Positions 25,356 through 52,683 of a DNA stretch of 64,000 nt are shown here, in pieces. The stretch spans positions 2,474,830 to 2,538,829 of the forward strand of contig NZ_JOMH01000001.1 in NCBI RefSeq assembly GCF_000711245.1, given 5' to 3'. The notes under the pieces are model-generated. The model worked only from the letters and a program-made list of their open reading frames with translations, ran no database searches and had not been told where the DNA came from. The position numbers and the translations under genes were made by a program. Positions within the stretch are counted from its first letter, which is position 1; the number at the start of each line of letters is the position of its first letter. The stretch is from Polycyclovorans algicola TG408. GTDB taxonomy: Bacteria; Pseudomonadota; Gammaproteobacteria; Nevskiales; Nevskiaceae.

Positions 25356-27254
25356 ATGGTCGGGTTGAAGCGTTTCAGGGTGTTGTCAGTGCTGGTCATG
25401 GCGTTCGCCACGCTTGGGGCCCAAGCCTCCCAGCGCGTGGCACTGGTGATTGGTAATGGCGCCTATCAGCACACCCAGCGGCTGACCAACCCAGTGAACG
25501 ACGCATCGGACATCAGCGCTGCCTTGCGTAAATTGGGCTTCGAAGTTCACAGCGGCAACAACCTCGACGCCAACAGCATGCGCAGCCGTTTGCAAAGCTT
25601 CGCCGGGGCCGCCAACGGCGCAGAACTGGCGTTGGTGTTCTACGCCGGTCACGGCATCCAGGCCGAAGGGACCAACTACCTCATTCCTGTCGATGCAAAG
25701 CTCGACACCCCCTTATCGCTGCGCTTTCAGGGCATCGCCATGTCCGACGTCATGGCCGCCACCAGCGGCGCCCGGACCAAAGTCTTGCTGGTGGATGCCT
25801 GCCGCGACAACCCACTGGCCAATCAATGGGCCAGTGAAGGACGCAACGTCAGCCGAGGGCTAGGGCGTATCGATTCCACCGACGGCGGCACCCTCATTGC
25901 CTTTGCCACCCGCCCTGGCGCCATTGCAGCAGACGGTGCCGGCCGCAACAGCCCCTTCACCAGCGCCCTGTTGCAGCACCTTGAAACGCCGGGGATTGAA
26001 CTTCGCATCCTGCTCACCCGCGTTCGCAACCGCGTCCTGGAACTCACCCGCAACGCCCAAGAACCGTGGACGGAAGAATCGCTGCGATCAGAGATTTACC
26101 TCCTGCCCGGTAGTGGCAGCACCGCCACCGCGCAGAGCGTGCCAGCGTTTGATCCCCGCTCGGTAGAACTCGCCTAATGGCAAAGCGCCGTCGCGGCCGG
26201 ATCGGTAGAAGCGTTTCAGGACTACAAGCGTCAATACCCGCAAGGTCAGTTTGTGGGGCAGGCCGACATCCAGTTGGCCTCCCTCACCCGCCCACGGCCC
26301 GCCGCACCGCCGCCCTCGTCTGGCGGCAGTGCGCCTGCCCCGGTGACGCAGAGCCAATATGGCGCGGGCGGCGTGTTGCTGCGGCCTGGGAGCCTCGGCG
26401 GCCTGAGCGCGGGCACGGTGTTCCGGGACTGCGAAGACTGCCCCGAGATGCTGCGTGTGCCCACGGGACGTTTCCAGATGGGCAGCCCCAGCCATGAGGC
26501 TGACCGGAAAACCAACGAAGGCCCGATGCACGAGGTGCGGATCGACTATGCCCTCGCGGTGGGCAAGTTCGAGGTGACACGCGGGCAGTGGCGGCAGTTT
26601 CTGAGTGAGAGCGGCCGCAGCGGCAGCACGGGCTGCACGGTGTTCGACACCAGCCAGAATAAGTGGGTGCTGCAGAACGACAAGAGCTGGCGCGATCCTG
26701 GCTTTGCGCAGGACGATAAGCACCCTGTCGTGTGCGTGAAGTGGAACGAGGTCAAGGCGTATGCGGAGTGGCTGGGTCGCAAGACGGGTAAGCGCTATCG
26801 GCTGCTGAGCGAAGCTGAATTTGAGTATGTCAATCGTGCCGGCACGAGCACGCCGTGGTTTTGGGGCAGTGATCCACAACAGGCGTGTCGCTATGCCAAT
26901 AACGCCGACACGCAGTATGCCCAGTGGCGGGGCTGGCCGGGCGTGACCGGCGGCGCCAAGTGTGACGACGGCTATGCCAACACCGGCCCGGTGGGCCGCT
27001 ACCAGCCCAACGTCTTCGGGCTTTACGACACCACCGGCAATGTCTGGGAATGGACCGAAGACTGCTGGAACGAGGGCTATGTGGGCGCACCAACGAATGG
27101 CGCGGTGTGGGCCGCTGGGGACTGCACCCGGCGCGTGGTGCGCGGCGGCTCCTGGGTCACTCTTCCCGCGAACCTGCGGGCGGCGCCCCGCAACTGGACC
27201 TCCGCCACGGCTGCGCTCAACGACCGGGGCTTCCGTCTCGCCAGGACCGATTGA
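25356..27254 (+). pseudogene. Caspase-FGE gene broken by an in-frame stop (DGR target copy)
   Basis: One reading frame encodes signal peptide, caspase domain (His99 in YAGHG, Cys149 in DACRDNPL) and FGE domain, but a TAA at 26175-26177 interrupts it after FDPRSVELA. The first gene in the window reads LAHWQSA at the same place and here the frame continues WQSAVAAGSVEAFQDY, so the TAA replaces one sense codon. The 273-residue caspase half can still be made from 25356. The FGE half has an internal ATG at 26253 but no signal peptide. From about 26660 to the end the DNA is identical to the 43556 gene, including the variable repeat. Confidence 0.85.
27128..27245 (+). repeat. DGR variable repeat identical to VR2
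   Basis: 118 nt identical to 45183-45300. It matches TR2 with 14 adenine-site changes and one other. Identity of two mutagenised VRs shows that one was copied from the other after diversification. Confidence 0.93.
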
Positions 27255-27289
27255 CCCTTTGGCCTATGGCCTTTGTCCCTTTGCCCTGT

Positions 27290-28759: not shown

Positions 28760-29884
28760 TCAGGGCAGCAACTGGTAGGTCACGGCCTTGCGGGCCACCA
28801 AGCCATCAACTCGATCGGCGAGGATCTCTTCCAGCGTCATCGTGGGCTTGACCTCCGTGATCGCAGACCGGCCCGTCATGACTTCCCAGAAGCTCTTATT
28901 TTGCGCGCAGACCGCCAACAGGGTTTGGGTTCCCGCCTCACCCGACAGCCGAACCTGGACATCGCCCGAGGAACGGGGAAGGAACTGAGCGCGGCCGGCC
29001 TGCAAGGTCAGCGATTCGTTCATTGCATTGGGAGATAGCACGCTGTAATCACCATTGTGATCCACGTTAACCACCCGCAGGTCACAACGACGCTCTGCGG
29101 TCACCGAAAAAGTCAAGGCGTCGCCAGCCCGGTAGCTGGCTTCACCCGTGCGGACGTTGAGGCCGAAATCCGACTTGAACGCCGGCAGCGGATATGCCGC
29201 CGGAATCGCCGCCGCGGGTGCTGCAGCCATGGTGGTTCGGCTGGAAGGGACCGAAGCCGTTGCTGACGCACTCGGTGCCACGCTGTAGTGCACGTTAGCC
29301 GTCGCCCACTTGGTCTGCGGAGGCGCCTGGTTGACCATGACCGTCATCGTGCGCGCATACACATCTGCGCTATCTCCAATCAATGCGAAGGGGGCTGCCC
29401 CCGTCATCACGCGCCCGGTCTGGAAACGAGCATTGGGATCGGTAGTGGCGACAGCCTTCAGCACGCTCAGACCGTAAGGTTGGGAAACCCGGATACCAGG
29501 GCAACTGGCCGAACCACGCTGCCCCACGCCCACCTCAACCGTCTGCCCGGCGCCAAGCGCTTTATTCGGCTGACACGCATTGGGGAATAAAACCGTCTTC
29601 ACGCCCCTGCTGTTCACTTCCACCAGTTCCACGCGCGCCGCCTGGTTCACCTTGAGAAACACCCGCGCCCGATCGCCATCGGCATAGACCCCGTTGGGGC
29701 GATCGGTCCATACATCCACTTTGAGGTCCGACTGCGGCACCGCAAGCGACGTGATCGTCACCTGCTCCGCCGTCATGGCACGCTGTTCGCTGGCAACCGC
29801 CATCGGGCTCGCCAAGCTGGCCACCGCCAGCAGCATCGCCACACTGTAAGAAGCCAAGGCCGCAGCGGGCTTGAAACAAGGCAT
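28760..29884 (-). CDS. Exported DUF4384-type protein
   Basis: A 374-residue paralogue of the 4976-6172 product. The ATG at 29884 is chosen because it gives a signal peptide (YSVAMLLAVASLASPMAVAS) and lies 45 nt after the element at 29930; the longer frame to 30031 crosses that element. The two domains keep the pattern YADGDRARVFLKVNQAARVE with LFPNACQ, and YRAGDALTFSVTAERRCDL with VLSPNAMNE. A shorter linker than in the paralogue separates them. It lies next to the decayed DGR cassette. Confidence 0.8.
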   Translation of the reverse strand: MPCFKPAAALASYSVAMLLAVASLASPMAVASEQRAMTAEQVTITSLAVPQSDLKVDVWTDRPNGVYADGDRARVFLKVNQAARVELVEVNSRGVKTVLFPNACQPNKALGAGQTVEVGVGQRGSASCPGIRVSQPYGLSVLKAVATTDPNARFQTGRVMTGAAPFALIGDSADVYARTMTVMVNQAPPQTKWATANVHYSVAPSASATASVPSSRTTMAAAPAAAIPAAYPLPAFKSDFGLNVRTGEASYRAGDALTFSVTAERRCDLRVVNVDHNGDYSVLSPNAMNESLTLQAGRAQFLPRSSGDVQVRLSGEAGTQTLLAVCAQNKSFWEVMTGRSAITEVKPTMTLEEILADRVDGLVARKAVTYQLLP

Positions 29885-29929
29885 GGAAACGCTCCTATTG
29901 ACCACCCGGGATTCGGGCACTGTTCCACC

Positions 29930-29941
29930 TATCGGGATGAG
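29930..29941 (-). promoter_or_regulatory. CTCATCCCGATA element
   Basis: One mismatch at the second base; 45 nt before the ATG at 29884. Confidence 0.7.
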
Positions 29942-30002
29942 CTCCTCCAAGGCAATGTGCCGTACAGCACATAAGTCCTGCGCGAGACCACCTTGGCCCC
30001 CA

Positions 30003-30338
30003 TCAGAAGCTAATCGAGTTGAATTCGACACGAGTGGGGCTTGAGGTCACACGCGGCTCCACCACCCGCATCAGCGCGTGGTGCACCACGCGGTCGGCAA
30101 AGGGCGCGGCCGAGATCAGTCGTGGTTTGCGGTCGTAGACCGTGAACTGGCGGTAGGCACCGGGCCGCCAGGTGCCGGCCGCCAACTGCTCGCGCAGGCG
30201 CCGCAGCTCGCCTTCCTGATTCAGCGCAAAGCGCGCCACCGCGTCGCGGTTGCGCTTGCCGCGCCGGGCAGCACGAAAGGCCGCTTCCAGATTTTCTGGT
30301 GCGATGATCTGCGGCCAGAGGCCGCCAATGCGCTTCAT
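30003..30338 (-). pseudogene. Truncated DGR reverse transcriptase
   Basis: The first 94 residues match the RT at 45779-46846 almost exactly (MKRIGGLWPQIIAPENLEAA to MRVVEP). Then the sequence switches to 17 unrelated residues and a stop. Everything with the catalytic core (KLD, the GLP/NLTSQ motif, YVDD) is missing, so it cannot polymerise. The start overlaps the avd stop as in the complete cassette. The breakpoint is near 30055, and the template repeat that should follow is gone. Confidence 0.92.
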
Positions 30339-30691
30339 GGGGCGCCCCGCGCGCGGCGCCAGCCGCCCACCTGCTTGGCAATATCCAGCAGCCGCTCCGC
30401 TGCATGGCTGTGCGTCTTGGGGGCCACGGCCTTGACCTCCAGCGCCACGCGCCAGAGGTGGCGCAACAGGTCCAGTTTGGCGTTGGCCGGTTCCAGATGC
30501 CGCGCCTGTTCCGATGGGCGCGCGCAGGTCGACAGCAGCAGCCGCTCCAGCACCTCGAGGAGTAGGGTCTCGATGCGAGTGCCGAGGGTGTAACGCTGCG
30601 AACGCGGAAACTGGTAGAGCTCGTTCACCATCCACACGATCAGCTCGCGGCAGGCATCCACAGCCAGCGGCAAGGCGAGGGGCGTGCTCAT
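30335..30691 (-). CDS. avd: Avd-type DGR accessory protein (decayed cassette)
   Basis: A 118-residue helical protein homologous to the Avd at 45429-45782: shared FPRSxRYTLGxRIET, the Leu-rich VLERLLL helix and LLRHLWRVALEVKAVAPK. Avd forms a barrel-like pentamer of four-helix bundles that binds RT and template RNA. It is intact and could still assemble with the distant RT. It follows the caspase-FGE gene at 30825 by about 130 nt, in the standard target-avd-RT order. Confidence 0.88.
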   Translation of the reverse strand: MSTPLALPLAVDACRELIVWMVNELYQFPRSQRYTLGTRIETLLLEVLERLLLSTCARPSEQARHLEPANAKLDLLRHLWRVALEVKAVAPKTHSHAAERLLDIAKQVGGWRRARGAP

Positions 30692-30824: not shown

Positions 30825-32717
30825 TCAATCGGTCCTGGCGAGACGAAAGCCCGTATGGAAGTTCCCGGAGGTGGCGGTGTTCGGGCCACGGCTCGCAGCC
30901 CGCAGGTACGCGGGAATTTCGCGCCAAGCGCCGCCGCGCCCCACGCGAAGGGTGCAATCACCAGCGGCCCACACCGCGCCATTAGTAGGTGCACCGACAA
31001 AGCCCTCGTTCCAGCAGTCCTCGGTCCATTCCCAGACGTTGCCGGTCGTGTCGTAAAGCCCGAAGGCGTTGGGTGGGTAGCGCCCCACGGGCGCGGTGTT
31101 GGCATAGCCGTCGTCACACTTGGCGCCATCTTTGACGCCCGTCGTAAAGCCGCGCCACTGGGCATACTTCGTGTCGGCGTTGTTGGCATAGCGACAGGCT
31201 TGTTGTGGATCACTGCCCCAAAACCACGGCGTGCTCGTGCCGGCACGATTGACATACTCAAATTCAGCTTCGCTCAGAAGCCGGTAACGCTTGCCCGTCT
31301 TGTCACTGAGCCAAGCCGTGTAGTCATTGGCCCATTGCCAAGTCATGCACACCACTGGATGGCTGTCGTCTTGCGCATAACCCGGGTCCCGCCAGCTTTT
31401 GTCGTTCGCCTTTACAAACTTGCGCTGATCGGTGTCAAAAACGAAACACCCGTTCGGATAAGTCTTGCCGCTCTCACTCAGAAACTGCCGCCACTGCCCC
31501 CGTGTCACCTCAAACTTGCCTACCGCCAGCGCGTAGTCAATGCGCACCTCGTGCACCGGGCCTTCGTTGGTTTTCCGGTGAGCCTCTTGGCTGGGGCTGC
31601 CCATCTGGAAACGGCCGGTCGGCACCCGAACCATTTCCGGACAATCCTCGCAGTCGCGGAACACCGTGCCGGCGCTCAGGCCGCCGAGGCTCCCAGGCCG
31701 CAGCAACACGCCGCCCGCGCCGTATTGGCTGCTGGTGACCGGTGCGGGGGCACTGCCGCCAGAGGGGGCCTGCGCGGGCGGTGGCCTTGGCCGCGTCAGC
31801 GCCGCCAGCTCAATGTTGGCCGTCGCGGCATAGGGGCTGTTGGGGTAGCTCTGCACAAGCTGCCGCCAGGCGGCCTCACTGCCCGCACGCTGGGCGGCTT
31901 GAAATGCCAGCTGCTCAGGGTCGGGGGCCGACGCGGCAAGGCCAGCCGTGTCCCGCGGCCCGGGTACCAGGATAAACCGCCCGCGCAGGTTACTTTCGCG
32001 TATCGGGGTCTGCTGCCGGCTGGTGACGCGTTCCACCGCACCGGTGAGGTCAGCAAAGACATCGTCCATGGTGTAGCCGGGTTTGCCGAGCAGGCCCAGC
32101 AACTGCTCAGTGAAGACGCCGTTGCTGCCCCTGCCGTCAAATGACTTTTGCCCGGGGCTGGCGGCATAGCCGATGAAGCTGCCGGAGGGCGCCACCATGC
32201 GGGAGAGGCCGCGCGCCATGCCGCCGCGGGTGCGGCTGGGGAGCGGCTTGTCTCGGCAAGCATCGAGAATGACGATGTTGATGCCGTCGCCCCGCTGTTC
32301 CATGCGCCGCAGCACCGATTGCGCGTCAACGGAGAAGTCCGGAACGTCTTCCAGAAAGGAGATGTTCTGGTCGTCCACCGGAATCAAGTAGTTGGTGTCA
32401 TCGCCGCCCACGCCGTGGCCGGCAAAGTAGAAGAAGGCGACATCACCCGGGGATAGCGCCTCGCCAAACTGTTTGATCAGCACGTTGGCGCGGCTCTGGG
32501 TCACGTCCAGGTGCGCCTGTCCGCCCACCAGCTTGAAATCCAGCTCCTTGAGCTTGCCCGCCACTGCCCGCGCGTCATTACCGGCATTGCTGAGCCGGCC
32601 CATGGTCGGGTAGTTGTCGTTGCCAATCACCAGCGCCACGCGCTGCGAAGCCTGCGCGCCGAATGGCAGCAGCAGACCCAGCGAGAGCACCGCCGCCCAA
32701 AGGCATTTGTCCATCAT
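30825..32717 (-). CDS. Exported caspase-like protease with FGE/C-type-lectin domain (DGR target of decayed cassette)
   Basis: A 630-residue protein, the longest of the FGE group. The ATG at 32717 (or 32714) is preferred over a TTG at 32720. A signal peptide (AVLSLGLLLPFGAQA) is followed by a caspase domain with FYFAGHG and ILDACRDKPL. The linker contains the QYGAGGVLLRPGSLGGLSA block shared with the 43556 gene. The FGE domain begins at CEDCPEM and contains GNVWEWTEDCWNEG. The variable end reads RGGAWREIPAYLRAAS. A CCCATCCCGATA site lies 37 nt upstream. Avd and the RT stub follow. Confidence 0.88.
   Translation of the reverse strand: MMDKCLWAAVLSLGLLLPFGAQASQRVALVIGNDNYPTMGRLSNAGNDARAVAGKLKELDFKLVGGQAHLDVTQSRANVLIKQFGEALSPGDVAFFYFAGHGVGGDDTNYLIPVDDQNISFLEDVPDFSVDAQSVLRRMEQRGDGINIVILDACRDKPLPSRTRGGMARGLSRMVAPSGSFIGYAASPGQKSFDGRGSNGVFTEQLLGLLGKPGYTMDDVFADLTGAVERVTSRQQTPIRESNLRGRFILVPGPRDTAGLAASAPDPEQLAFQAAQRAGSEAAWRQLVQSYPNSPYAATANIELAALTRPRPPPAQAPSGGSAPAPVTSSQYGAGGVLLRPGSLGGLSAGTVFRDCEDCPEMVRVPTGRFQMGSPSQEAHRKTNEGPVHEVRIDYALAVGKFEVTRGQWRQFLSESGKTYPNGCFVFDTDQRKFVKANDKSWRDPGYAQDDSHPVVCMTWQWANDYTAWLSDKTGKRYRLLSEAEFEYVNRAGTSTPWFWGSDPQQACRYANNADTKYAQWRGFTTGVKDGAKCDDGYANTAPVGRYPPNAFGLYDTTGNVWEWTEDCWNEGFVGAPTNGAVWAAGDCTLRVGRGGAWREIPAYLRAASRGPNTATSGNFHTGFRLARTD
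30835..30952 (-). repeat. VR-like segment of the decayed cassette
   Basis: 118 nt aligning without gaps to TR2, with about as many changes at non-adenine as at adenine positions. It therefore was most likely written from its own template, which was lost with the RT 3' part. Confidence 0.65.
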
Positions 32718-32754
32718 CAACCCATCCCGAAGTACGATCCTGAATAATCTGAGT

Positions 32755-32874: not shown

Positions 32875-34629
32875 TTAATCGCTCTTGGCGAGCCTAAAGC
32901 CCACAGTGATGTCCCCAGCTTTGGGGGGGCCGCCGTTACGGGAGGCTGACCGCACGATTATCGGTTGATAAAACCAGGAGCCACCCCGCAACACTCGCTG
33001 TGAACAGTCACCCGAAGTCAAAGCACTGCCATCGGTGGGACCTCCCGCATAGCCGGCTTCCCAACAGTCCTGAACCCATTCCCAGACGTTGCCGTGCACA
33101 TCGTGCAGGCCCCAAGGGTTGGCGGCATAGCTGCCCACCGGCTGGGTCTTCTCCAGATAAACACCGGTCCTGCCACAACCCAGAAAATGATAGTTACCGT
33201 CGTAGTTGGCGCGGTCGTTATGTATGCAGTCACCAAAACTAAATTCCGTGCTGGTTCCCCCACGGGCAACATATTCCCATTCGGCCTCACTCAAAAGGCG
33301 ATAGCGCTTGCCGGTCTTGCGGCTCAGCCACTGCACGTATTGTTGGGTGTCTTCCCAACTCACGTTGATGACCGGACGACGGCCACGACCCCAGCCCCGC
33401 TCATCGTCAGGCCGCTTGCTGCAACCGCCCGCCGCGTAGCAAGCGTCCCACTCGTCAAACGTCACCTCGTACTTGCCCACCCAGAAAGATGACACTTGAA
33501 CCCCGCGCACCGGCTTTTCATGTGGGAAGCCCTTGCCGCTGAGGTCTCCCATACGAAAGCTGCCGCCGGGAATCTTCACCATCTCGGGGCATTCAGGGCA
33601 GTCCATAGCATTCGTGCCTGCCGCTGCAGTCGGCAATACCGCTCGTGGCAGCGCCTGCTGTACGGATGGCTGGGCTTGAGGTGGCTGCGGCTGCGGCCTT
33701 GGCCGCGCCAGGGCGGCCAGCTCAATATTCGCCGTCGCGGCATAGGCGCTATTGGGATAGCTCTGCACAAATTGCCGCCAGGTGGCCTCGCTGCCCGCAC
33801 GCCGGGCGGCCTGAAAGGCCAAAAGCTCAGGGTCTAGGGAGATTGCTTGCGCCGGGGCAGCGGCCATGCCAGGCGACGGGGGGGTGAAGTAAAACCGCCC
33901 AGACAGCGGGGGGCCGTAAACAAAGGGTTCCTGCTGGCGGTTGGTCATCCGTAGCACTTCGGTGCGCACTTCACCCCAAAGGTCTCGGATTTCAAGTCCC
34001 GGGGTCTTCAGACCCTGCAGCAGGGCGGTGGTGAAGGGGCTGTTGCGACCGGTGCCGTCGGCGGCGCGGCTGCCGTCTCTAGCTGCATAGACCACTTGCA
34101 GGTTGTCGATGGGCTCGATACGCGCCAAGCCGCGAAATGCACTGCGCGTGCCGCTGCGCCGGGTCATGTTGTTGACCAGCGGGTTGTCGCGGCAGGCATC
34201 CAGAAACACGATCCCCAGCCGTGAGGCGCCGACTATGTCCATCACGTCGTTTAACCGCACAGTTTGAAGCGCAGCAACGGCCTCACTTTCTAGCTTGGCG
34301 TCTACCGGGATCAGGTAGTTCTGCCCGTTCAGCTCCATGCCGTGGCCGGCGTAGAACAGCACGGCCATTTCCGAGCCTGCCGCCTTGCCGGCGAATGCCG
34401 ACAGCGCCTGTTCCATCCGACTCTTGCCGGCATCGGTCACTACATCCACCGCAAACCCGGCCGAACGCAGCGCAGTGCTGACATCGGCCGCGTCGTTGCC
34501 GGGATTGGCCAACCGCGAGGTGTGTTGATAGGTGGCATTGCCAATCACCAGTGCCACTCGTGCAGCGGCCGCCGGCTGCGCGATGATCATGAGCAGCACG
34601 GCCACCAGCCACCCGAATTTAAGCTTCAT
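32875..34629 (-). CDS. Exported caspase-like protease with FGE/C-type-lectin domain
   Basis: A 584-residue protein. The ATG at 34629 gives a signal peptide (GWLVAVLLMIIAQPAAA). Caspase motifs are FYAGHGMELNG and FLDACRDNPL. The FGE domain starts at CPECPEM, keeps all strands (MGDLSGKG, VGKYEVTFDEWDACYAAGGC, GNVWEWVQDC) and ends RGGSWFYQPIIVRSAS. Its 3' end differs from both templates at many non-adenine positions, so it is the least clear DGR target. The GC-GGA-GC hairpin found after the other VRs is not evident here. The upstream element lies 38 nt before the start. Confidence 0.86.
   Translation of the reverse strand: MKLKFGWLVAVLLMIIAQPAAAARVALVIGNATYQHTSRLANPGNDAADVSTALRSAGFAVDVVTDAGKSRMEQALSAFAGKAAGSEMAVLFYAGHGMELNGQNYLIPVDAKLESEAVAALQTVRLNDVMDIVGASRLGIVFLDACRDNPLVNNMTRRSGTRSAFRGLARIEPIDNLQVVYAARDGSRAADGTGRNSPFTTALLQGLKTPGLEIRDLWGEVRTEVLRMTNRQQEPFVYGPPLSGRFYFTPPSPGMAAAPAQAISLDPELLAFQAARRAGSEATWRQFVQSYPNSAYAATANIELAALARPRPQPQPPQAQPSVQQALPRAVLPTAAAGTNAMDCPECPEMVKIPGGSFRMGDLSGKGFPHEKPVRGVQVSSFWVGKYEVTFDEWDACYAAGGCSKRPDDERGWGRGRRPVINVSWEDTQQYVQWLSRKTGKRYRLLSEAEWEYVARGGTSTEFSFGDCIHNDRANYDGNYHFLGCGRTGVYLEKTQPVGSYAANPWGLHDVHGNVWEWVQDCWEAGYAGGPTDGSALTSGDCSQRVLRGGSWFYQPIIVRSASRNGGPPKAGDITVGFRLAKSD
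32885..33002 (-). repeat. Divergent VR-equivalent segment
   Basis: Positionally equal to the VRs and alignable to TR2 at protein level (RGGSW, RSASRN, GFRLA), but nucleotide changes are not adenine-biased. It is likely an inactive or differently templated site. Confidence 0.45.
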
Positions 34630-34667
34630 CAACCCTCTCCCTTGTCACCCGGTGCCCATAGTTTGTT

Positions 34668-40008: not shown

Positions 40009-41394
40009 ATGCAGCCCAATTTGCAAATCACTGTCAGTCCTGTAGCGAGGGTCCGACATTCGGAGGGCGCTCGGCTCATGCAACGGGCAATGGGTGTCAC
40101 CGTGATGATTGTGCTTGGTATCGCCTGCGCGGGGCATCTATCGTCGGCTAGCGCGGCTACCGATCCAACAACGTCTGCGCCCGATGTCGAGGGCTTTACT
40201 GCCGAGCACACGGACTCATCCCATGGAGTAGATGGCGGGCAGCCGATCGTTGATCAGGCTGATGCCGCCAGCCATAACGACCCGACTGCGAACTCAACAC
40301 TGTCAAAGTTGGGACTCTCGCTGCTGATTCAAAGGCTGGCTTCGGCGCCGCGTGACAACGTCATGCTCTCTCCTACCAGCGTCGGGGCTGCCCTAGGGTT
40401 GCTCGCGCAAGGGGCGCGAGGTGAAGCGGCTACGGCGCTCGCCAAAGTATTCGGACTGAGCCTGCCTGAAGATGCCGCCTTGCTCGAGAAGGTGGGAGAC
40501 GGCTTAAAGGCGTTGAAAGATGCCACTGGCGAGAATATTCAGTTCAGCAGCGCCAACGCGCTCTACCATTCGCCAGATCTAATGCCGTTGGCGTCCTTTG
40601 TAGAGAGGGCCGAGGAGGGCTTTGGCGCCATGATTCAGAGCGTCGATTTCGCATCACCAGAGACTCTTGGCGAAATCAATCAATGGTTCAAGGGCGAAAC
40701 GGGAGGGAAAATTCCCGAACTCCTCACCGACCTGTCGCCCAGCACGAGATTTCTAATCGGCAATGCCCTGTATTTCAAGGGCACATGGCTGCACCCATTT
40801 GACCCTTCGAAAACTCGGCCGCTACCTTTTGTGGCAACAACGGGCAAGCGAGATGTGCCCAGCCTCCATGACGAACGGCCGCTTCACTACGCCCAGAAAC
40901 CCGGGTATCAGGCGGTGCAGATCCCCTTCGCGGGCGAGCGCTTCGTCCTGACCGTCCTGCTGCCGGACAGAGAAAGCAACCCGGAAGCGGTACTCAAATC
41001 CTTCACACCCGAGTCGTTTGCAGAATCGTTGAGCTTTGTCTCGGCCAGGACGCAACCCGTGCAGCTGCGACTGCCAAAATTTGATCTAACCGATGGTGGC
41101 GAATACCGCGAAACGCTCGAAGCGATTGGCCTGGCACCCATCTTTGCAGCCGATGCCGATTTTGGCGGTATGGCCAACGAACCGCTGACCGTGAGCAGCG
41201 TTGTGCACAAGACCACGTTCACCGTGGATGAAGAAGGTGCCGAAGCCAGTGCCGCGACGGCCATTATTGGTGTGCGCAGTGCAGCACCAATGGCAGCGCC
41301 CGTCGATTTCACCGTAGACCGACCATTTATCGCCGCCTTGGTTGATCGGGCGAGTGGCGGTGCAGTAATGCTAGCGGTGATCTCTGAGCCTTGA
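40009..41394 (+). CDS. Exported serpin
   Basis: A 461-residue serpin. The ATG at 40009 has GGAG 8 nt before it, but the signal peptide (MGVTVMIVLGIACAGHLSSA) begins later, so the in-frame ATG at 40078 with GGAGG is a real alternative. Hallmarks: MLSPTSVGAALGLLAQGARG, FLIGNALYFKGTW, hinge EEGAEASAATAI and DFTVDRPFIAAL. With alpha-1-antitrypsin spacing P2-P1 falls on Arg-Ser in GVRSAAP; a shift of one residue would make Arg the P1, suited to trypsin or Arg-specific caspase-like enzymes. It is divergent from the caspase operon at 39773. Confidence 0.9.
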   Translation: MQPNLQITVSPVARVRHSEGARLMQRAMGVTVMIVLGIACAGHLSSASAATDPTTSAPDVEGFTAEHTDSSHGVDGGQPIVDQADAASHNDPTANSTLSKLGLSLLIQRLASAPRDNVMLSPTSVGAALGLLAQGARGEAATALAKVFGLSLPEDAALLEKVGDGLKALKDATGENIQFSSANALYHSPDLMPLASFVERAEEGFGAMIQSVDFASPETLGEINQWFKGETGGKIPELLTDLSPSTRFLIGNALYFKGTWLHPFDPSKTRPLPFVATTGKRDVPSLHDERPLHYAQKPGYQAVQIPFAGERFVLTVLLPDRESNPEAVLKSFTPESFAESLSFVSARTQPVQLRLPKFDLTDGGEYRETLEAIGLAPIFAADADFGGMANEPLTVSSVVHKTTFTVDEEGAEASAATAIIGVRSAAPMAAPVDFTVDRPFIAALVDRASGGAVMLAVISEP

Positions 41395-43555: not shown

Positions 43556-45310
43556 ATGTGTGACTGGACGACGCGGTTCGTGGCGCTGTTGTTGTTGTTG
43601 TGTATGGGCGGGCATGCGCAAGCTGCGCAGCGCGTGGCGCTGGTGATTGGCAATGGCGCCTACCAGCACGTGACCAACCTGCCGAATCCGGCCAATGACG
43701 CGGCGGCGATGACCCGCACGCTCAAGGGCCTGGGTTTTCAAGTGACCGAGGTGCGGGACGCAGGCAAAGGGGCCATGGAGCGCGGTGTACTCCAGTTTGG
43801 GCGGCAAGCCAGCGGCGCAGACGTGGCGCTGGTGTACTACGCAGGCCACGGCATGCAGGTGGATGGCCGCAACTACCTGATTCCCGTGGATGCCCGGCTC
43901 GAGGATGACCTTTCACTGCGCGTGGAGGCCGTGGATCTGGACCTGCTGCTCAGCTCGGTGTCCAGCGCCGAAACGCGACTGATTTTTCTGGATGCCTGCC
44001 GGGACAACCCCTTCAGCCGCCGCATGAAAATGTCTAACGCGACCCGCAGTGTGGGGCGCGGGCTGGCACGCGTGGAATCGGCTGCGGGCGGCACCCTGAT
44101 CGCGTTTGCCACAGACCCCGACAACGTCGCCGACGACGGCAGCACCGGCAACAGCCCCTTCGCCGCCGCGCTGTTGGAATACCTGCCCCAGCCGGGGTTG
44201 GAAATTCGACAGGTCATGGGCCGCGTGCGCCTGGCGGTGGCCAACGCGACCAACCGCCGGCAGATCCCCTGGGAAAATAGCTCGCTTTTTGGAGATCTGT
44301 ACCTCGCAGGTGGTGCTGGAGAGACCCAAGTTGCCTCCCTCACCCGCCCACGGCCCGTCGCACCGCCGCCCTCGTCTGGCGGCAGTGCGCCTGCCCCGGT
44401 GACGCAGAGCCAATATGGCGCGGGCGGCGTGTTGCTGCGGCCTGGGAGCCTCGGCGGCCTGAGCGCGGGCACGGTGTTCCGAGACTGTGAAGACTGTCCC
44501 GAGATGGTGCGCATCCCTACCGGGCGCTTCCAGATGGGCAGTCCCAGCCACGAGGCCGACCGCCACGGCGACGAAGGCCCGGTGCGCGAGGTGCGGATTG
44601 ACTACGCTCTGGCGGTGGGCAAGTTTGAGGTCACGCGGGGCCAGTGGCGGCAGTTTCTGAGCGAGAGCGGCCGCAGCGGCAGCACGGGCTGCACGATGTT
44701 AGACACCACCCAAAACAAGTGGGTGCTGCAGAACGACAAGAGCTGGCGCGATCCTGGCTTTGCGCAGGACGATAAGCACCCTGTCGTGTGCGTGAAGTGG
44801 AACGAGGTCAAGGCGTATGCGGAGTGGCTGGGTCGCAAGACGGGTAAGCGCTATCGGCTGCTGAGCGAAGCTGAATTTGAGTATGTCAATCGTGCCGGCA
44901 CGAGCACGCCGTGGTTTTGGGGCAGTGATCCACAACAGGCGTGTCGCTATGCCAATAACGCCGACACGCAGTATGCCCAGTGGCGGGGCTGGCCGGGCGT
45001 GACCGGCGGCGCCAAGTGTGACGACGGCTATGCCAACACCGGCCCGGTGGGCCGCTACCAGCCCAACGTCTTCGGGCTTTACGACACCACCGGCAATGTC
45101 TGGGAATGGACCGAAGACTGCTGGAACGAGGGCTATGTGGGCGCACCAACGAATGGCGCGGTGTGGGCCGCTGGGGACTGCACCCGGCGCGTGGTGCGCG
45201 GCGGCTCCTGGGTCACTCTTCCCGCGAACCTGCGGGCGGCGCCCCGCAACTGGACCTCCGCCACGGCTGCGCTCAACGACCGGGGCTTCCGTCTCGCCAG
45301 GACCGATTGA
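43556..45310 (+). CDS. Exported caspase-like protease with variable FGE/C-type-lectin domain (DGR target 2)
   Basis: A 584-residue protein with a signal peptide (FVALLLLLCMGGHAQAAQ). The caspase domain has His98 (YAGHGMQ) and Cys148 (LDACRDNPF). After a short Pro-rich linker with QYGAGGVLLRPGSLGG, an FGE domain runs from CEDCPEM to the end with GNVWEWTEDCWNEG and RGGSW. The final 40 residues (VTLPANLRAAPRNW and on) are encoded by VR2. FGE-fold C-termini are the commonest display scaffold for DGR variability. The gene heads the unit target-avd-RT-TR. Confidence 0.92.
   Translation: MCDWTTRFVALLLLLCMGGHAQAAQRVALVIGNGAYQHVTNLPNPANDAAAMTRTLKGLGFQVTEVRDAGKGAMERGVLQFGRQASGADVALVYYAGHGMQVDGRNYLIPVDARLEDDLSLRVEAVDLDLLLSSVSSAETRLIFLDACRDNPFSRRMKMSNATRSVGRGLARVESAAGGTLIAFATDPDNVADDGSTGNSPFAAALLEYLPQPGLEIRQVMGRVRLAVANATNRRQIPWENSSLFGDLYLAGGAGETQVASLTRPRPVAPPPSSGGSAPAPVTQSQYGAGGVLLRPGSLGGLSAGTVFRDCEDCPEMVRIPTGRFQMGSPSHEADRHGDEGPVREVRIDYALAVGKFEVTRGQWRQFLSESGRSGSTGCTMLDTTQNKWVLQNDKSWRDPGFAQDDKHPVVCVKWNEVKAYAEWLGRKTGKRYRLLSEAEFEYVNRAGTSTPWFWGSDPQQACRYANNADTQYAQWRGWPGVTGGAKCDDGYANTGPVGRYQPNVFGLYDTTGNVWEWTEDCWNEGYVGAPTNGAVWAAGDCTRRVVRGGSWVTLPANLRAAPRNWTSATAALNDRGFRLARTD
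45183..45300 (+). repeat. DGR variable repeat VR2
   Basis: 118 nt aligned to TR2 (46848-46965) with 15 mismatches, 14 at template adenines and one T to G. Changes cluster in the AAC/AAT codons after RGGSW. The edge GTCTCGCCAG is shared, then VR reads GACCG and TR reads TCCGC. Confidence 0.96.
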
Positions 45311-45388
45311 CCCTTCTACCCTCTTACCCTTTTAACGCTTTTACCCTGCTGTGGCGCGCCGCCAGGCGCGTGCTGTGTCTGTTTTTTT

Positions 45389-45405
45389 GCGCCGCGGAGC
45401 GGCGC
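45389..45405 (+). other. VR-downstream hairpin with GGA loop
   Basis: GCGCCGC, GGA, GCGGCGC; a perfect 7-bp stem with different bases from the other copies but the same GC-GGA-GC apex. It is 88 nt after VR2, just before the avd ribosome site. Confidence 0.6.
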
Positions 45406-45428
45406 CGCGCGATTTTTTGGAGGGTGGT

Positions 45429-45782
45429 GTGGAACCCAAGACCCCGCAGGCCATCGACGCCTGCCATGACTTGATCACCTGGCTGGTGGTCAAGCTCGAT
45501 GCGTTTCCACGCAGCCGGCGCTACACGCTGGGCGCGCGTATCGAGACCGAGGCGCTGGGCGTGCTGGAACGGTTGCTGCTGGCTACCTATGCGCCGAAAG
45601 CAGAGAAAGCGGCGCACCTGCGCGATGCCAATGTGCGCCTGCAGATCCTGCGGCATCTCTGGCGTGTGGCGCTGGAGGTCAAGGCGGTGGCGCCGAAGGC
45701 GCATCGATACGCCGCCGAGCGCATGGTGGACATCGGGCAACAGATCGGGCTCTGGACCCGCAGCCAGACGGCCCCGCCATGA
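45429..45782 (+). CDS. avd: DGR accessory variability protein Avd
   Basis: A 117-residue helical protein. I chose the GTG at 45429, 5 nt after GGAGG; the frame upstream crosses the hairpin. It has the family look: basic, Leu-rich helices with FPRSRRYTLGARIETEALGV, VLERLLLATYA and LLRHLWRVALEVKAVAPKAH-type segments. Avd oligomers bind the RT and template RNA and are needed for adenine mutagenesis. The stop overlaps the RT start (ATGA), so the two are made in step. Confidence 0.92.
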   Translation: MEPKTPQAIDACHDLITWLVVKLDAFPRSRRYTLGARIETEALGVLERLLLATYAPKAEKAAHLRDANVRLQILRHLWRVALEVKAVAPKAHRYAAERMVDIGQQIGLWTRSQTAPP

Positions 45783-46846
45783 AGCGTATTGGCGGCCTGT
45801 GGCCGCAAATCATCGCCCCAGAAAATCTGGAAGCGGCCTTTCGCGCCGCGCGGCGCGGCAAGCGCGACCGCGACGCGGTGGCGCGCTTTGCGCTGAATCT
45901 GGAAGGCGAGCTGCGGCGCCTGCGCGAGCAGTTGGCGGCCGGCACCTGGCGGCCCGGTGCCTACCGGCAGTTCACGGTATACGACCGCAAGCCGCGCCTG
46001 ATCTCGGCCGCGCCCTTTGACGACCGCGTGGTGCACCACGCACTCATGCGGGTGGTGGAGCCGCCTCTGGACCGGCGGATGTTTTTCCACAGCTATGCCT
46101 GCCGCGCCGGCAAGGGCGTGCACGCGGCGGTGAACCAGTACCAGCGCTGGGCGCGGCACTATGCCTATGTGCTGAAGCTGGACGTGCGCCAGTATTTCCC
46201 GAGTATCGACCGGGGCCTGTTGCAGGTGGAGCTGGCGCGCTACCTCAAGGAGGCCGAGGTGCTGCGGCTGTTCGGGGTGATCATTGAGCAGGCGCCGCTC
46301 ACCGCCGCCGCACCGGCCTACTTTGCCGGGGATGATCTGCTGACGCCGCTGGCGCATACGCGCGGGCTGCCGATTGGCAACCTCACCAGCCAGGTGCTGG
46401 CCAACCTGTATCTGAGCCGCGTGGATCACTGGATTGCGCAGCATCACCGGGGCGGCTACCTGCGCTACGTGGATGACCTGATAATGCTCGGTGACGACAA
46501 GGCGGCGCTATGGGGCCTGCAAGACGCCATCGACGACCAGCTTGCGGGCTTGCGCCTGCATCTGCACCCCAACAAGGCGCAGGTGATGCGCAGCGACCGC
46601 AAGGTGGATGTGCTGGGCTACCAGGTATCGCAGTCCCAGCGCTGGCTGCGCGCCGAGAACCCGCGCCGCGCGCGGCACCGGCTGCGGCGGCTGGCCCGCG
46701 GCTACGCGGCGGGGCGTCTCGGGCTTGATGCCGTTCGGCAGTCGGTGAGTGCCTGGATCGGTCATGTGCAGCACGCCGACTCGTGGGGATTGCGGCGGCA
46801 GATGCTGGACGCGCTATCGTTCTCCCGGGCCGGCATCCGAGCGTGA
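45779..46846 (+). CDS. DGR reverse transcriptase
   Basis: A 355-residue group-II-intron-like RT of the DGR class. Motifs: RxI-type region about 60-95, KLDVRQYFPSID with Asp135, GLPIGNLTSQVLANLYL (196-212; the DGR class often reads xGxxxSQ here) and catalytic YVDD at 230-233, then LHPNKAQV and LGYQVS. Length is normal for DGR RTs and there is no extra nuclease or maturase domain. It copies the template RNA into adenine-mutated cDNA that replaces the VR. It is the only intact RT in the window, with the template repeat one base after its stop codon. Confidence 0.96.
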   Translation: MKRIGGLWPQIIAPENLEAAFRAARRGKRDRDAVARFALNLEGELRRLREQLAAGTWRPGAYRQFTVYDRKPRLISAAPFDDRVVHHALMRVVEPPLDRRMFFHSYACRAGKGVHAAVNQYQRWARHYAYVLKLDVRQYFPSIDRGLLQVELARYLKEAEVLRLFGVIIEQAPLTAAAPAYFAGDDLLTPLAHTRGLPIGNLTSQVLANLYLSRVDHWIAQHHRGGYLRYVDDLIMLGDDKAALWGLQDAIDDQLAGLRLHLHPNKAQVMRSDRKVDVLGYQVSQSQRWLRAENPRRARHRLRRLARGYAAGRLGLDAVRQSVSAWIGHVQHADSWGLRRQMLDALSFSRAGIRA

Positions 46847-46847
46847 G

Positions 46848-46965
46848 CCCGGCGCGTGGTGCGCGGCGGCTCCTGGAACAATCAACCCGCGAACCTGCGG
46901 GCTGCGAACCGCAACAGGAACACCGCCACGGCTGCGAACAACAACCAGGGCTTCCGTCTCGCCAG
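46848..46965 (+). repeat. DGR template repeat TR2
   Basis: 118-nt invariant template for VR2. In the target frame it encodes eight AAC and one AAT codon, so mutation cannot create stops at those codons. It starts one base after the RT stop. A short CCCGGC-TT-GCCGGG hairpin follows at 46980-46993. Confidence 0.96.
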
Positions 46966-47039
46966 TCCGCCCGCTACAGCCCGGCTTGCCGGGTGTCCGG
47001 AATGGCGGCACTCACGGGTGTCGCCAGTGCGACGGTTGT

Positions 47040-47103
47040 GGGTGTCCATGGATGCCGTGTCTGGGTTCAGCAGGGAGGCTGGGCCGAACAGCAGAGCAAG
47101 GAG
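47040..47103 (+). ncRNA. Conserved box 3' of TR2 (probable template-RNA element)
   Basis: Partner of the 2106-2168 box: about 56 of 63 positions are equal, beginning GGGTGTCCATGG. It lies 75 nt after TR2 and before a terminator, so the template RNA probably spans about 46848-47149. Confidence 0.6.
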
Positions 47104-47110
47104 GCATGAG

Positions 47111-47149
47111 CGCCCGGTTGGTAGGCCATGCCGAAGACCGGGCGTTTTT
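47111..47149 (+). terminator. Rho-independent terminator of the DGR cassette
   Basis: CGCCCGGT (47111-47118) pairs with ACCGGGCG (47137-47144), followed by TTTTT. It ends the target-avd-RT-TR unit just before the next CCCATCCCGATA element. Confidence 0.8.
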
Positions 47150-47164
47150 CAGGCGTGATGTGTG

Positions 47165-47176
47165 CCCATCCCGATA
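47165..47176 (+). promoter_or_regulatory. CCCATCCCGATA element
   Basis: An exact copy; rightmost in the window. A start at 47216 gives a 39-nt distance. Confidence 0.72.
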
Positions 47177-47215
47177 GGGAAGGTCGTGTCTGCTGCTTGG
47201 GAGCGCTTACTGCCT

Positions 47216-48115
47216 GTGCGATTCTTGTGTCGTCATGTTGCCAGCGTGTCGGCTGTGCTGGGCTTGGTCGCCCTGATCACGTTGCTGTGGATTGACGATG
47301 CTGAATGGCCTGCGCACACGGTGGTGGTGGAGCAGCCTGCGAATCCGCCTTTTGAGGCAAAAGTTGGGCAGAACAGCCCCCAGCTCACGAAGAAGGACGC
47401 GCAGAAAGAGCTGTCCACTTGGCCATTGTCTATGACTCATTCAGTTGAGCGCGGATGCGCCGTGCGGCTGGCGGTTGTTGGCGTTGGTGCCGCTGCGGAG
47501 TCCGAGGCGCTTGCCGCATTGCCGGACGCCTGTGCGGCGTCGGCAGTTGACGCCGACTTGGTGTGGGATATTTCGGCAAGGGCGGTCATCGACAGCTTTG
47601 GCCGTCGCGTTATGGATGTAGACGATACAGCCACAGTGGCACTGGCCATCCAGCGTTTGACACTGGAGCGGGCCCTGATTGACGCAACCGACGGCACGCC
47701 GCTGGTGGCGGATGTCCACAATCCAACCGGCATGCTGGCCGAAGGCAGTCAGATGAACGTTTCGGTGGAGGCGCCGCATGCAGGCTACGTGCAATTGCTG
47801 AACCTCACGCCGGACGGGAGGCTGCTGCGGCTCTATCCCCTGTACGAAGGCGACCGCTATACGCCACTGGAAGCGGGTGAACGTCTGGAGTTGGGAGAGC
47901 TGCAGCCGGAGCCGCCCTATGGCCGGGAGTCGGTGTGGTTGATCGTGAGTGAAGCGCCCCTTCCGTTCGCGTTGGAAAGATTCGACGTGATGGCGGGCGA
48001 GGTTGATGCAGCGGGCTACCTGCGATGGCTACAGCATCAGAAGGACGCCGGGACGCTGGCGGTGAGGCGCTTCGATGTCTCAACCGTTTCAAACCGTTCT
48101 GAGCCGTCGCCATAG
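47216..48115 (+). CDS. Membrane-anchored DUF4384 protein
   Basis: A 299-residue product from the GTG at 47216, chosen because it lies 39 nt after the regulatory element and gives a normal anchor (VSAVLGLVALITLLW); the longer frame to 47162 would include the element itself. The C-terminal part (residues about 165-275) is a DUF4384 domain (EGSQMNVSVEAPHAGYVQLL, then RLYPLYEG). The middle part resembles that of the 22781 caspase between protease and DUF4384 (DLVWDIS), so this looks like that protein without its protease domain. A decoy or adaptor role is an inference. Confidence 0.75.
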   Translation: MRFLCRHVASVSAVLGLVALITLLWIDDAEWPAHTVVVEQPANPPFEAKVGQNSPQLTKKDAQKELSTWPLSMTHSVERGCAVRLAVVGVGAAAESEALAALPDACAASAVDADLVWDISARAVIDSFGRRVMDVDDTATVALAIQRLTLERALIDATDGTPLVADVHNPTGMLAEGSQMNVSVEAPHAGYVQLLNLTPDGRLLRLYPLYEGDRYTPLEAGERLELGELQPEPPYGRESVWLIVSEAPLPFALERFDVMAGEVDAAGYLRWLQHQKDAGTLAVRRFDVSTVSNRSEPSP

Positions 48116-49767: not shown

Positions 49768-50187
49768 TCAGCCCCAATGCTCGTCGTTGGCGGCGTCGTG
49801 CCAAAGACAGTGACGCTCCAGACGGATCAACAACTCGGAGAGCTCGGGGCCCGCACCACAGGTCAAATCGAATGAGGGATCGCCCAGCTGTTCCTGCACC
49901 CAGTGTTGTAAGGCAGACAGATTGTCGCGAACGTCGCTGCCACCCATCCAGATCAATAACTCCTTGCCTTCGGGACAGACGGTGAGATGCGGCAGCATCG
50001 ACAAGGCCAGCCGACGTGCCCTCCTCGCGAACCGGGTGGCTCGAAGTTCATCCTCGAGTTGCTGCCGGAGCAGCGGGATGTCCGGCGACCCTTCATCGCG
50101 TGACTTTGTGCCAAGCGAAGCAGTGCTTCGCTGAAAGACTGGCTGCTCAATTGCGTCAGCCGACTTTGCGGTTAGATCAATCTTCAT
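49768..50187 (-). CDS. Small cytoplasmic protein of unknown function in integrase operon
   Basis: A 139-residue protein whose ATG lies within the last codons of the integrase and whose stop is 3 nt before the HD gene. It has a basic helix (LRATRFARRARRLAL) and a Trp-containing C-terminal half (LQHWVQEQL). No family recognised. Tight coupling suggests a role with the integrase or HD protein. Confidence 0.65.
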   Translation of the reverse strand: MKIDLTAKSADAIEQPVFQRSTASLGTKSRDEGSPDIPLLRQQLEDELRATRFARRARRLALSMLPHLTVCPEGKELLIWMGGSDVRDNLSALQHWVQEQLGDPSFDLTCGAGPELSELLIRLERHCLWHDAANDEHWG

Positions 50188-50855
50188 TCGAGGTTCCTCC
50201 GGTCGGCATGGCGCCGCGAATCAGGCGATCAAACGCCGATCCGTCCTGACGGGTCAGGTTGGCGATATAGCGGCTGTAAACGCTGAACAGCATCTGCGTA
50301 CTGGTGTGGCCCATCTGCCTGGCGATCCATTCAGGGTTTTCGCCAGCAGCCAGCCACAAGGTCGCAGCGGTATGTCGGGTTTGATAGGGCCGTCGTCGCT
50401 TCAGCCCCAGCCGATCGAGTAACGGATTCCAGATTCGGTTCGTGAAGTTGTGGGTATCGATCGGCAGGCCGTTGCTGGTCTGGAAGACATAGACCCCGTT
50501 GCCGGTACGGACCTGCATCCGCTGCAGGGCGTCAAAGACCGGCTGGCTCATCTGAATCTCCCGCTGTGAGCCGTCGGTCTTGGTGTACTCCTCGCGGCCA
50601 TTGACGATGGTTTCCCTGACGCGAATCTCCCGACGATCGAAATCGACGAATCGCCACTTCAAGCCGTGAATCTCACCGCTGCGCATGCCGGTAAAAAATC
50701 GGGCGATCAGGTAGTCCTGAAAATCGGCACGAACTTCGTCGACAAGACGCCGCACCTCTTCAAGGCTGAAGGGTTCGATATCCGTCTTCTTGACCTTCAG
50801 ACGCTTGACCGCAGTCTGAACCGCCCCAAGTATCCCGGAGGCCATTTAGTCTGAG

Positions 50856-51761
50856 TCACGCAGCTTTGACGTACTCAGGGTGTTGTGCATAGTAGTTAGC
50901 TTCTGCTTCGGCTGGCGGGATGTGCCCGATGGGCTCCAGCAGTCTTCGGTTGTTGAACCAGTCCACCCAGTTCAAGGTGGCCCATTCGACGTCCTCGCGT
51001 TTGCGCCATGACGACTGCCGGTGGATGACTTCGGCTTTGAACAAGCCGTTGATGGTCTCGGCCAGGGCGTTGTCATAGCTGTCGCCGACGCTGCCCACCG
51101 AGGGCTCCAGTCCCGCGTCGACCAGGCGCTCGGTGTATCGAATCGAGAGGTACTGGACGCCCCTATCGCTGTGATGAACCAGCCGACCCGATCCAAAGGG
51201 CTTTCGGTCGTGCAAGGCTTGTTCCAAGGCATCGAGCACGAAATCGGTGCGTGCCGATGATGAGGCTCGCCAGCCGACGATGCGTCGGGCGTAAACATCA
51301 ATGACAAAGGCAACATAGACAAAGCCCTGCCAGGTGGACACATACGTGAAGTCGGACACCCAAAGCTGGTTTGGCCGATCTGCCTTGAACTGCCGTTGTA
51401 CGTGATCCAGTGGGCATGAAAGGTTCTTGTCACTGAAAGTGGTGCGCACCCCCTTGCCGCGAATCACGCCGCGCAGCCCCAGCCGCTTCATCAGCCGTGC
51501 CACGGTGCATCGCGCAACTCCTACCTGCTCGCGTCGCAATTGGCGATAGACCTTGCGTACTCCGTAGACCCGGAAGTTGTCGTTCCAGATTTGCTGAATC
51601 AACGGGGTGAGTTGATCGTCTCGTTTAGCTCGAAGAGATCGTTGTCCTGGATCCCGCTGCTGGGCAGCGTGTGCGTAGTAGGTCGATGGGGCAATCGGCA
51701 GCACTTTGCAGATCGGCTCGACCCCATGGACATCACGATGTGCGTCGATGAACGCCTTCAT
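50856..51761 (-). CDS. IS3-family transposase OrfB
   Basis: A 301-residue DDE integrase-type transposase. Helix-turn-helix-like HTH_21 region at 60-110 ([16 protein letters not shown]), then the rve core: Asp in WVSDFTYV, Asp in HHSDRGVQY, Glu in [12 protein letters not shown]. The ATG overlaps the OrfA stop (ATGA). Many IS3 members make an OrfAB fusion by frameshifting; here simple coupling is also possible. Looks intact. Confidence 0.94.
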
Positions 51762-52081
51762 CGTTTGAATGGGCGGTCGAGCTCCGCCTGAGCAAAATAC
51801 GCAGATGCCTTGCGCAGAATCTCGTTGGCCTGACGCAGTTCGCGAACCTCGCGCTCCAGCGCCTTCAGGTGCGCCTTCTCGTCGGTGGTCAGGCCCTCCC
51901 GCTGCCCAACATCACGCTCGTGCTGCCGGACCCACACCCGCAGGGTCTCGGCCTTGCACCCCATCTTTCCAGCAATCGATTCCATCGCCGCCCACTGCGA
52001 GCTGTAGTCAGATTGATGCTCCAGCACCAGCCGCACCGCTCGCTCCTTCAGCTCCGGGGAATACCGTATTCCTTTGTTCAT
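51758..52081 (-). CDS. IS3-family transposase OrfA
   Basis: A 107-residue helix-turn-helix protein ([31 protein letters not shown]) with a leucine-zipper-like C-terminal helix ([17 protein letters not shown]). It binds the IS ends. Intact, in contrast to the stop-bearing copy at 8302. Confidence 0.94.
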
Positions 52082-52683
52082 CGCTCCATCCTCTCAAGGT
52101 TTAGAGCCTCCGGGAAAGATGGGGCGGTTCAGTCAGCGGATTGTTGACGCCATGCTCAAGGGCGACCTCATCCAGAATCATGCTCAAGATGCCCATGATC
52201 CGGTTCACCGTTGCCGCCGATCTCACCTTGCCACTAGCGGAACGCTCGGTTGCCAACTGGGCCCGGTAGGTCAGCAGCGTGTTGCGATCAATCGCCAGAA
52301 CCGGCCGATCTCCAAACGCCGGAAGCAGATGACGCTGCAGGATGTGCCGTACCGATTCCGCATAGCTCTGACGCCATTCGATCGTCTTCGTGGACAGCCA
52401 CTGCTCGACGAATTCCGAGAACAACGGCCCCCGATTCTCATCAACCGACGGTCGTTGGATTGGAGTGGGGGAGACGTCTGCATCGAATCGGCTTGCCAGC
52501 TTGGAGTCAGGAAAGTAGCGCCGGTACTCGAAGGTCCCCGCATTGATGTCGGCTTCAATTCGTTTGAGCATGACCGTGAGCTTCTTTCGGTTGGGGGCAG
52601 AATCCGAAAGCGCGGTTAGTTCGCGGCATCGAACCCCTCGGTACCTGAAATCGAAAAAAAGCTTCCCTTCGCGCACTCGAACA

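Follow-up and report, generated by a model that had tools for sequence, protein, structure and literature searches.

In the genome of Polycyclovorans algicola TG408 (GCF_000711245.1), we analyzed a stretch of 64,000 nt (NZ_JOMH01000001.1, positions 2,474,830-2,538,829, forward strand), hereafter the window, in which positions 43556-47149 almost certainly hold a complete diversity-generating retroelement (DGR), arranged as target gene, avd, reverse transcriptase (RT), template repeat (TR), and terminator. The system extends beyond these positions to an extra copy of its variable repeat (VR), a TR/VR pair without an RT, and an array of 12 caspase genes. Coordinates below are window positions; for the DGR and the genes, repeats, and elements of the array, they refer to the plus strand unless a minus strand is given.

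Components of the DGR and its variation at adenines

The target gene in cis, G6 (43556-45310), encodes a 584-amino-acid protein with a signal-like N terminus, a Peptidase_C14 domain, and a formylglycine-generating enzyme (FGE)/C-type lectin domain. Its variable repeat, VR2 (45183-45300), lies at the 3' end of this lectin-fold gene, 10 nt ahead of the end of the stop codon (45310), and its last 18 bp (45283-45300) form a GC-rich stretch, the same in VR2 and its template TR2, that we label initiation of mutagenic homing (IMH)-like by analogy. A 6-bp hairpin, CGCGCC-N4-GGCGCG (45355-45370), follows VR2, and similar hairpins stand 3' of the other VRs described below (VR1 and the VR2 copy) and of gene G4; it is a weak feature, with 48 such sites genome-wide. 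The avd open reading frame (ORF), with a GTG start, occupies 45429-45782, the RT gene occupies 45779-46846, and a single base separates the RT stop codon (46844-46846) from TR2 (46848-46965). A conserved element together with a terminator hairpin (47111-47149) occupies 47028-47149 on the 3' side of TR2. The hairpin has an 8-bp stem followed by TTTTT (fold z -2.96, matched by 2 of 200 shuffles) and was not listed by a consensus terminator scan, which accepts loops of 3-8 only. Scanning 45100-47300 for terminators gave four terminator-like sites, one of them overlapping the hairpin 3' of VR2, and neither of two promoter scans returned a promoter. No conserved RNA structure emerged for the element 3' of TR in an alignment of six sequences, in which the covariation term was only -1.58 of -29.4, and we claim conservation of this element at the sequence level only.

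Over 118 nt, TR2 and VR2 differ at 15 positions, 14 of them among the 25 template adenines and one among the 93 other sites, and a chance repeat is rejected as the origin of the pair (hypergeometric P 1.15e-10). The template adenines are replaced in VR2 by T (six), C (five), or G (three). None of the 38 in-frame codons of TR2, nine of which are AAY, can yield a stop by an adenine change, and the variants that TR2 could specify number about 1.1e15 as DNA and 3.7e13 as protein. Elsewhere in the genome, a TR2 search at E < 1 retrieved only matches of 25 bp or less (eight such), which we took as chance. A sequence-only reading that preceded this analysis had listed the target, avd, an RT with YVDD, a TR one base past the RT stop, and a terminator, and had counted 14 of 15 TR2/VR2 differences at template adenines; the list proved exact to the base, and alignment gave the same counts. 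ARAGORN called a tRNA-Asn inside TR2 (46888-46970, minus strand), which has no Rfam match and was rejected; it is probably a false call caused by the repeated AAC codons.

The RT carries the motifs YVDD and GLPIGNLTSQ and matches Pfam RVT_1; we take IGNLTSQ to be associated with DGR RTs. In a tree of 15 RTs, the 12 on the DGR side, which include the window RT and BPP-1 Brt, split from three group II RTs at 100/100. The window RT groups with that of Nevskia sp. D1_Bin_22 (100/100), next with the gammaproteobacterium FW602_bin.2 (95/92), and next with Thiohalocapsa/Chromatiaceae bins (99/98), in a tree that leaves 5 of 12 inner branches open and in which genome G047, BPP-1, and one group II row are flagged as long branches. 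Among solved chains, 8ub7 (E 2.6e-41), presumably the BPP-1 DGR RT, comes closest, compared with E 8.6e-16 for the best group II RT. Group II and retron identities were rejected by the tree, with NCBIfam scores of 115 bits against a cut-off of 300 for group II and 54 bits against 235 for retron St85. PADLOC gives many RT matches, the best to a general RT model, and we do not read them as a defense-associated RT (DRT). The Avd protein matches Pfam bAvd at 50.2 bits, above the cut-off of 40 (scan from the second codon), and the PHROG family "Avd protein of DGR" at E 2.1e-15, and it scores 78.4 bits with NCBIfam DivGenRetAVD, 1.6 below the cut-off of 80; a search of its sequence against the PDB returned no match. 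Viral contigs contained no close relatives, since the 18 loci found there comprise 17 at 29-36% identity and one partial match at 53%.

In G6, Pfam assigns residues 26-249 to Peptidase_C14 (E 9.9e-43) and residues 314-582 to FGE-sulfatase (E 1.2e-58). Regular expressions locate the caspase His and Cys motifs (GHG and DACR), and, with hydropathy, a hydrophobic signal-like stretch at the N terminus that ends in AQA. A structure model (predicted local distance difference test [pLDDT] 76.3, predicted template modeling score [pTM] 0.49) is usable for the domains, with a pLDDT of 55 to 88 by block in the last 50 residues. Its caspase domain matches MALT1 (Z 26.0, root-mean-square deviation [rmsd] 3.0 over 214), and its lectin domain matches both PvdO (Z 30.3, rmsd 2.7 over 253) and the DGR variable protein TvpA of Treponema denticola (2y3c; Z 24.8, rmsd 3.0 over 228). 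The codons with template adenines correspond to residues 553-555, 558, 563, 565-568, 570, 573-576, and 582, which in the model fall within the final strands and loops of the lectin domain. No cysteine occurs in the 36 C-terminal residues, a region that aligns with the catalytic Cys336/Cys341 of human FGE. A working FGE enzyme is therefore rejected, and the domain is likelier a binding fold than an enzyme. Thus, what the sequence-only reading had proposed for the proteins (an RT of the DGR clade, a caspase-like protease, and a VR encoding part of a lectin fold, with a signal-like stretch where it had named a signal peptide) holds up, and the variable residues that it had wanted modeled now have predicted positions on that fold.

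The caspase array, a copied VR, and an orphan template

A base-for-base copy of VR2 (27127-27244) lies in a second gene, G3, where an ORF for a different caspase (G3a, 25356-26177) is closed by an in-frame TAA at 26175 that divides it from a lectin ORF in the same frame (G3b, 26253-27254). The two genes share an identical tract of 599 bp that includes VR2 (44717-45315 = 26661-27259) and another of 123 bp in the linker (44359-44481 = 26303-26425), and between these tracts, bins of 60 columns are 82-97% identical. Since the same 14 random changes at adenines would not occur independently in two genes, the mutated cassette would have been exchanged by homologous recombination or duplication, and we conclude from this identity that the mutated VR moved between G6 and G3 by one of these routes. 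Retrohoming alone is rejected as the source of the copy, because the identity continues for 466 bp on the 5' side of the VR, into sequence that the TR does not contain. An assembly duplicate is possible, but the genome is a single contig. Among 38 upstream sites at which G3 and G6 differ and G4 has a letter, G4 shares the letter of G3 at 20 and that of G6 at 10, in an alignment that is imperfect.

At the array end opposite the DGR, a second template, TR1 (1902-2021), stands without avd or RT beside its caspase-lectin target, G1 (9-1730; the full ORF begins left of the window, at L017:9955). Over 120 nt, TR1 and its variable repeat VR1 (1598-1717) differ at 22 positions, comprising 20 of the 28 adenines and 2 of the 92 other sites (P 2.1e-14). 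VR1 is the sole match to TR1, and TR2 as query does not retrieve TR1. Three-frame translation of 1701-2240 revealed neither avd nor RT; genome-wide, RT matches are limited to the full RT of the DGR and a 98-residue fragment near G4, and Avd matches to the DGR avd and a 63% identical ORF adjoining that fragment. The element 3' of TR1 (2104-2212, with a hairpin at 2174-2212 and a T run; fold z -1.81, 9 of 200 shuffles equally good) matches the TR2 element at 90% identity over 58 nt, occurs only twice in the genome, and is also present in the Nevskia DGR. Because TR1 lacks an RT yet keeps an element of the TR2 type, either it is served in trans by the single RT or it has recently lost an RT of its own.

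We counted Peptidase_C14 genes at E 1e-10 or better in 58 genomes of the family. In P. algicola, all 12 belong to a single 44-kb array, which lies inside the window and has the DGR at one of its ends; in Nevskia sp. D1_Bin_22, all 11 fall within a 39-kb array that holds the orthologous DGR. Of the other 56 genomes, 6 have one or two such genes and 50 have none. The RTs of the two caspase-array genomes are 71% identical or more, and an RT search with a threshold of E 1e-20 gave matches in 3 of the 58 genomes, namely, these two and G047. The G047 RT (L016) is 32% identical, carries YVDD and IGNLLSQ, and sits on a long branch, in a genome without a caspase. Both congeners (2/2) lack the RT and the caspases alike.

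Regular expressions detected the caspase His and Cys motifs in 10 of the 12 array caspases, and a lectin domain is carried by or adjoins 6 of the 12 (G1, G2, G4, G5, G6, and the split G3). On the minus strand, the caspase-lectin genes G2 (19434-21059) and G4 (30825-32720) have VR-like ends that TR2 does not match, and G5 (32875-34632) has no TR match that we could find. Differences from TR2 at sites other than adenine amount to 16/93 for G4 and 13/93 for G2, and these ends are therefore not fed by TR2 now. Next to G4, also on the minus strand, 30045-30673 holds the 63% identical avd-like ORF (30338-30673) followed directly by the RT fragment (30045-30338), which corresponds to the first 98 residues at 94% identity; we read the region as having a mosaic history, and it might encode a second Avd. 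Two related DUF4384 genes lie at 4976-6172 and 28760-30031 (minus strand), and the second, which adjoins the cut RT fragment, may mark how the RT was lost there.

Other neighbors in the array encode two kinases, a PP2C, an FHA-caspase, DUF4384 proteins, an OmpA, a trypsin, and two serpins. The kinase genes (11789-13737, plus strand; 15606-17554, minus strand) have 1949 nt in common at 99% identity, inverted, with different ends (a TPR versus a TonB C terminus), and we read the pair, from its sequence, as another module exchange in the array. The serpin genes (18033-19418, minus strand; 40009-41394, plus strand) lie inside the caspase array, and their products are possible inhibitors of the array proteases. 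An integrase gene (50180-50845) lies near the DGR, as does a transposase gene (50859-51761); the latter has an ALIL pseudoknot, which we assume to be of IS3 type. A 331-nt piece (8252-8582), 95% identical to part of 50859-52131 and inverted, adjoins the trypsin gene.

Related retroelements and published systems

The DGRs with related RTs, examined in five named genomes, have TR/VR differences mostly confined to adenines. In Nevskia sp. D1_Bin_22, each of the two targets that flank the RT is a caspase-lectin fusion, with VR differences at 16/26 adenines and 0/89 other sites in one and 17/26 and 1/89 in the other; two further VR-like places fit the TR poorly (11 and 21 differences among 89 sites other than adenine). 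At other related loci, the differences fall at adenines in 6/6 (L023), 10/11 (L025), and 15/16 (L026) cases, and in L024 in 13/18 and 21/26, the other five being common to both VRs and located at their 5' edge. The targets of the RT relatives are nSTAND1-FGE proteins in the Thiohalocapsa/Chromatiaceae bins and an FGE protein without caspase in FW602. In a Bryobacteraceae bin (L026:2921-5368), a caspase ORF adjoins an FGE ORF with a VR, possibly as one gene split by a frame change.

The sequence-only reading had mentioned caspase-linked DGR targets reported in some multicellular bacteria, and the cyanobacterial orthocaspase case is in print (PMC7517822). Cyanobacterial DGRs resemble the P. algicola system in their N-terminal orthocaspases fused to C-terminal DGR-diversified lectins, in target paralogues, and in a TR-VR remnant without RT (all3226). 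However, the cyanobacterial targets are mostly predicted to be cytosolic, whereas those of P. algicola have signal-like N termini (PMC7517822, in part). P. algicola, a Nevskia-type gammaproteobacterium, also differs in that all the caspases found share one array with the DGR and that an identical VR occurs in two genes.

For the clade 5 DGRs of Thiohalocapsa PB-PSB1, action in trans is inferred in the literature, and lectin shuffling and mixed localization are described (PMC10907252). They resemble the P. algicola DGR in their related RTs, in C-terminal lectins placed on other N termini, and in RT loss at some loci, and one Thiohalocapsa target has a signal peptide, just as G6 has a signal-like N terminus (PMC10907252, in part). 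The likeness to clade 5 stems from the grouping of the window RT with the Thiohalocapsa/Chromatiaceae bins in the 15-RT tree. In contrast to the targets reported there, which comprise STAND NTPase, MoxR/vWA ternary, and CHAT/TIR proteins, those of P. algicola are Peptidase_C14 fusions with no NTPase seen. DGR-targeted orthocaspases, trans action, and lectin shuffling are thus already published.

The domain architecture of G6 also matches metacaspase-FGE fusions, of which 33 sequences were reported in 2012; in the section of that survey consulted, the FGE part is a possible enzyme, whereas G6 ends in a DGR VR without the FGE cysteines (PMC3501461). FGS domains and DGRs are reported in ternary systems (PMC7159879). 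The BPP-1 DGR and TvpA share with the P. algicola system the RT, Avd, TR/VR logic, and lectin-fold variable protein, but in BPP-1 the TR lies between avd and brt rather than in the order target-avd-RT-TR, and the target function also differs. In the open-licence literature, we found no work pairing a DGR with Nevskia and, among titles and abstract openings, no exported caspase array with a DGR; three papers in it mention DGRs together with gene conversion.

Possible roles of the diversified caspases

The most natural reading, to which we give a probability of roughly 0.55, is that the DGR is cellular and works for an array of exported caspase-lectin proteins, in which a diversified lectin sensor triggers the protease fused to it. 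The RT-Avd complex would copy the template RNA, putting in random bases wherever the template has an adenine, and the resulting cDNA would take the place of the VR, which closes the lectin-coding part of the gene at 43556. After export of the target, the lectin tip would probably bind a ligand located at the cell envelope or beyond it, and this contact would probably cluster or free the fused caspase, leading to cleavage of envelope or self proteins. The outcome would be a hypermutable protease trigger, most likely for defense or kin recognition. In favor of this reading, differences confined to adenines appear twice in the window (14/15 in VR2 and 20/22 in VR1) and again in DGRs with related RTs; the RT, Avd, and fold assignments agree with it, as do the missing FGE cysteines and the placement of the template-adenine residues in the terminal strands and loops of the lectin domain; and the caspase motifs (10/12) and the location of the caspases beside the RT (12/12 and 11/11) are further points for it. 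Several points weigh against it. VR2 and its copy are identical, and therefore neither has been rewritten since the exchange; the copy sits in a split gene; and the VR-like ends of G2 and G4 are not supplied by TR2. The VR2 data come from one strain, so that we can only infer present diversification. Moreover, 2 of the 12 caspases yielded no His or Cys motif by regular expression, the domain arrangement of G6 in the model is unreliable at its pTM, and a Pfam scan of 40 window proteins (left of ~52 kb) showed no NTPase or adaptor of the published conflict systems, including MoxR/vWA or STAND.

The lectin could be diversified while the caspase acts as an envelope-processing or regulatory protease, in surface remodeling, aggregation, adhesion, or signaling with the neighboring kinases, and triggers neither death nor defense. 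The company of kinase, PP2C, FHA-caspase, DUF4384, OmpA, trypsin, and serpin genes fits such a role, and the cyanobacterial survey favors signaling and a wider role of orthocaspases (PMC7517822). However, random diversification of a binding tip is a better fit for a partner that cannot be predicted than for a fixed process of the cell, and the nearest Chromatiaceae RT relatives have nSTAND1-FGE targets, a class proposed to be antiviral (PMC10907252), so we regard such a processing or regulatory protease as somewhat unlikely. The same paper considers the cellular role of DGRs still open.

The RT fragment near G4, the template without an RT, the stop dividing the G3 caspase from its lectin, the VR-like ends that no longer match any TR, and the nearby transposase and integrase genes would all be expected of a decaying island, in which a DGR that once worked survives intact at 43556 by chance while recombination and insertions break up the array. 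We consider this improbable, since every part of 43556-47149 is intact, as is the orthologue in another genus, and since differences outside adenines are only 1/93 in TR2/VR2 and 2/92 in TR1/VR1, compared with those at the ends of G4 and G2. Far less probable still is a secreted weapon acting on other cells, or a cargo island that benefits a mobile element. The signal-like N terminus, the integrase and transposase genes, and the absence of the RT and caspases from both congeners would suit it, but the 40 scanned proteins include no phage structural family and no secretion machinery, and a signal of the Sec type directs a protein to the periplasm rather than out of the cell.

Returning to the diversified sensor, we tentatively propose a two-tier extension, which we hold to be unlikely as a whole: one RT would mutate lectin tips from TR2 in cis and from the orphan TR1 in trans, and gene conversion would then copy the finished lectin cassette, with its mutated VR, onto other exported caspases. 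Under this proposal the P. algicola array would be likened to immune-receptor gene arrays, in which hypermutation and gene conversion work jointly.

This locus ranks above an ordinary DGR on account of its exchanged VR, its orphan template, and the caspases located with the DGR, and the array setting is more striking than the DGR locus itself. The presence of one mutated VR in two genes cleanly documents, in nature, the transfer of a diversified lectin tip between effectors through recombination. A randomized binding tip and a protease are combined in one polypeptide with a predicted export signal, and no NTPase partner was seen, an arrangement that lends itself to a direct test. In two genera, all the caspases found stand beside the same DGR while most genomes of the family have none, tying caspases and DGR together as one system, which looks like a mechanism for generating endless new binding specificities of a protease sensor.

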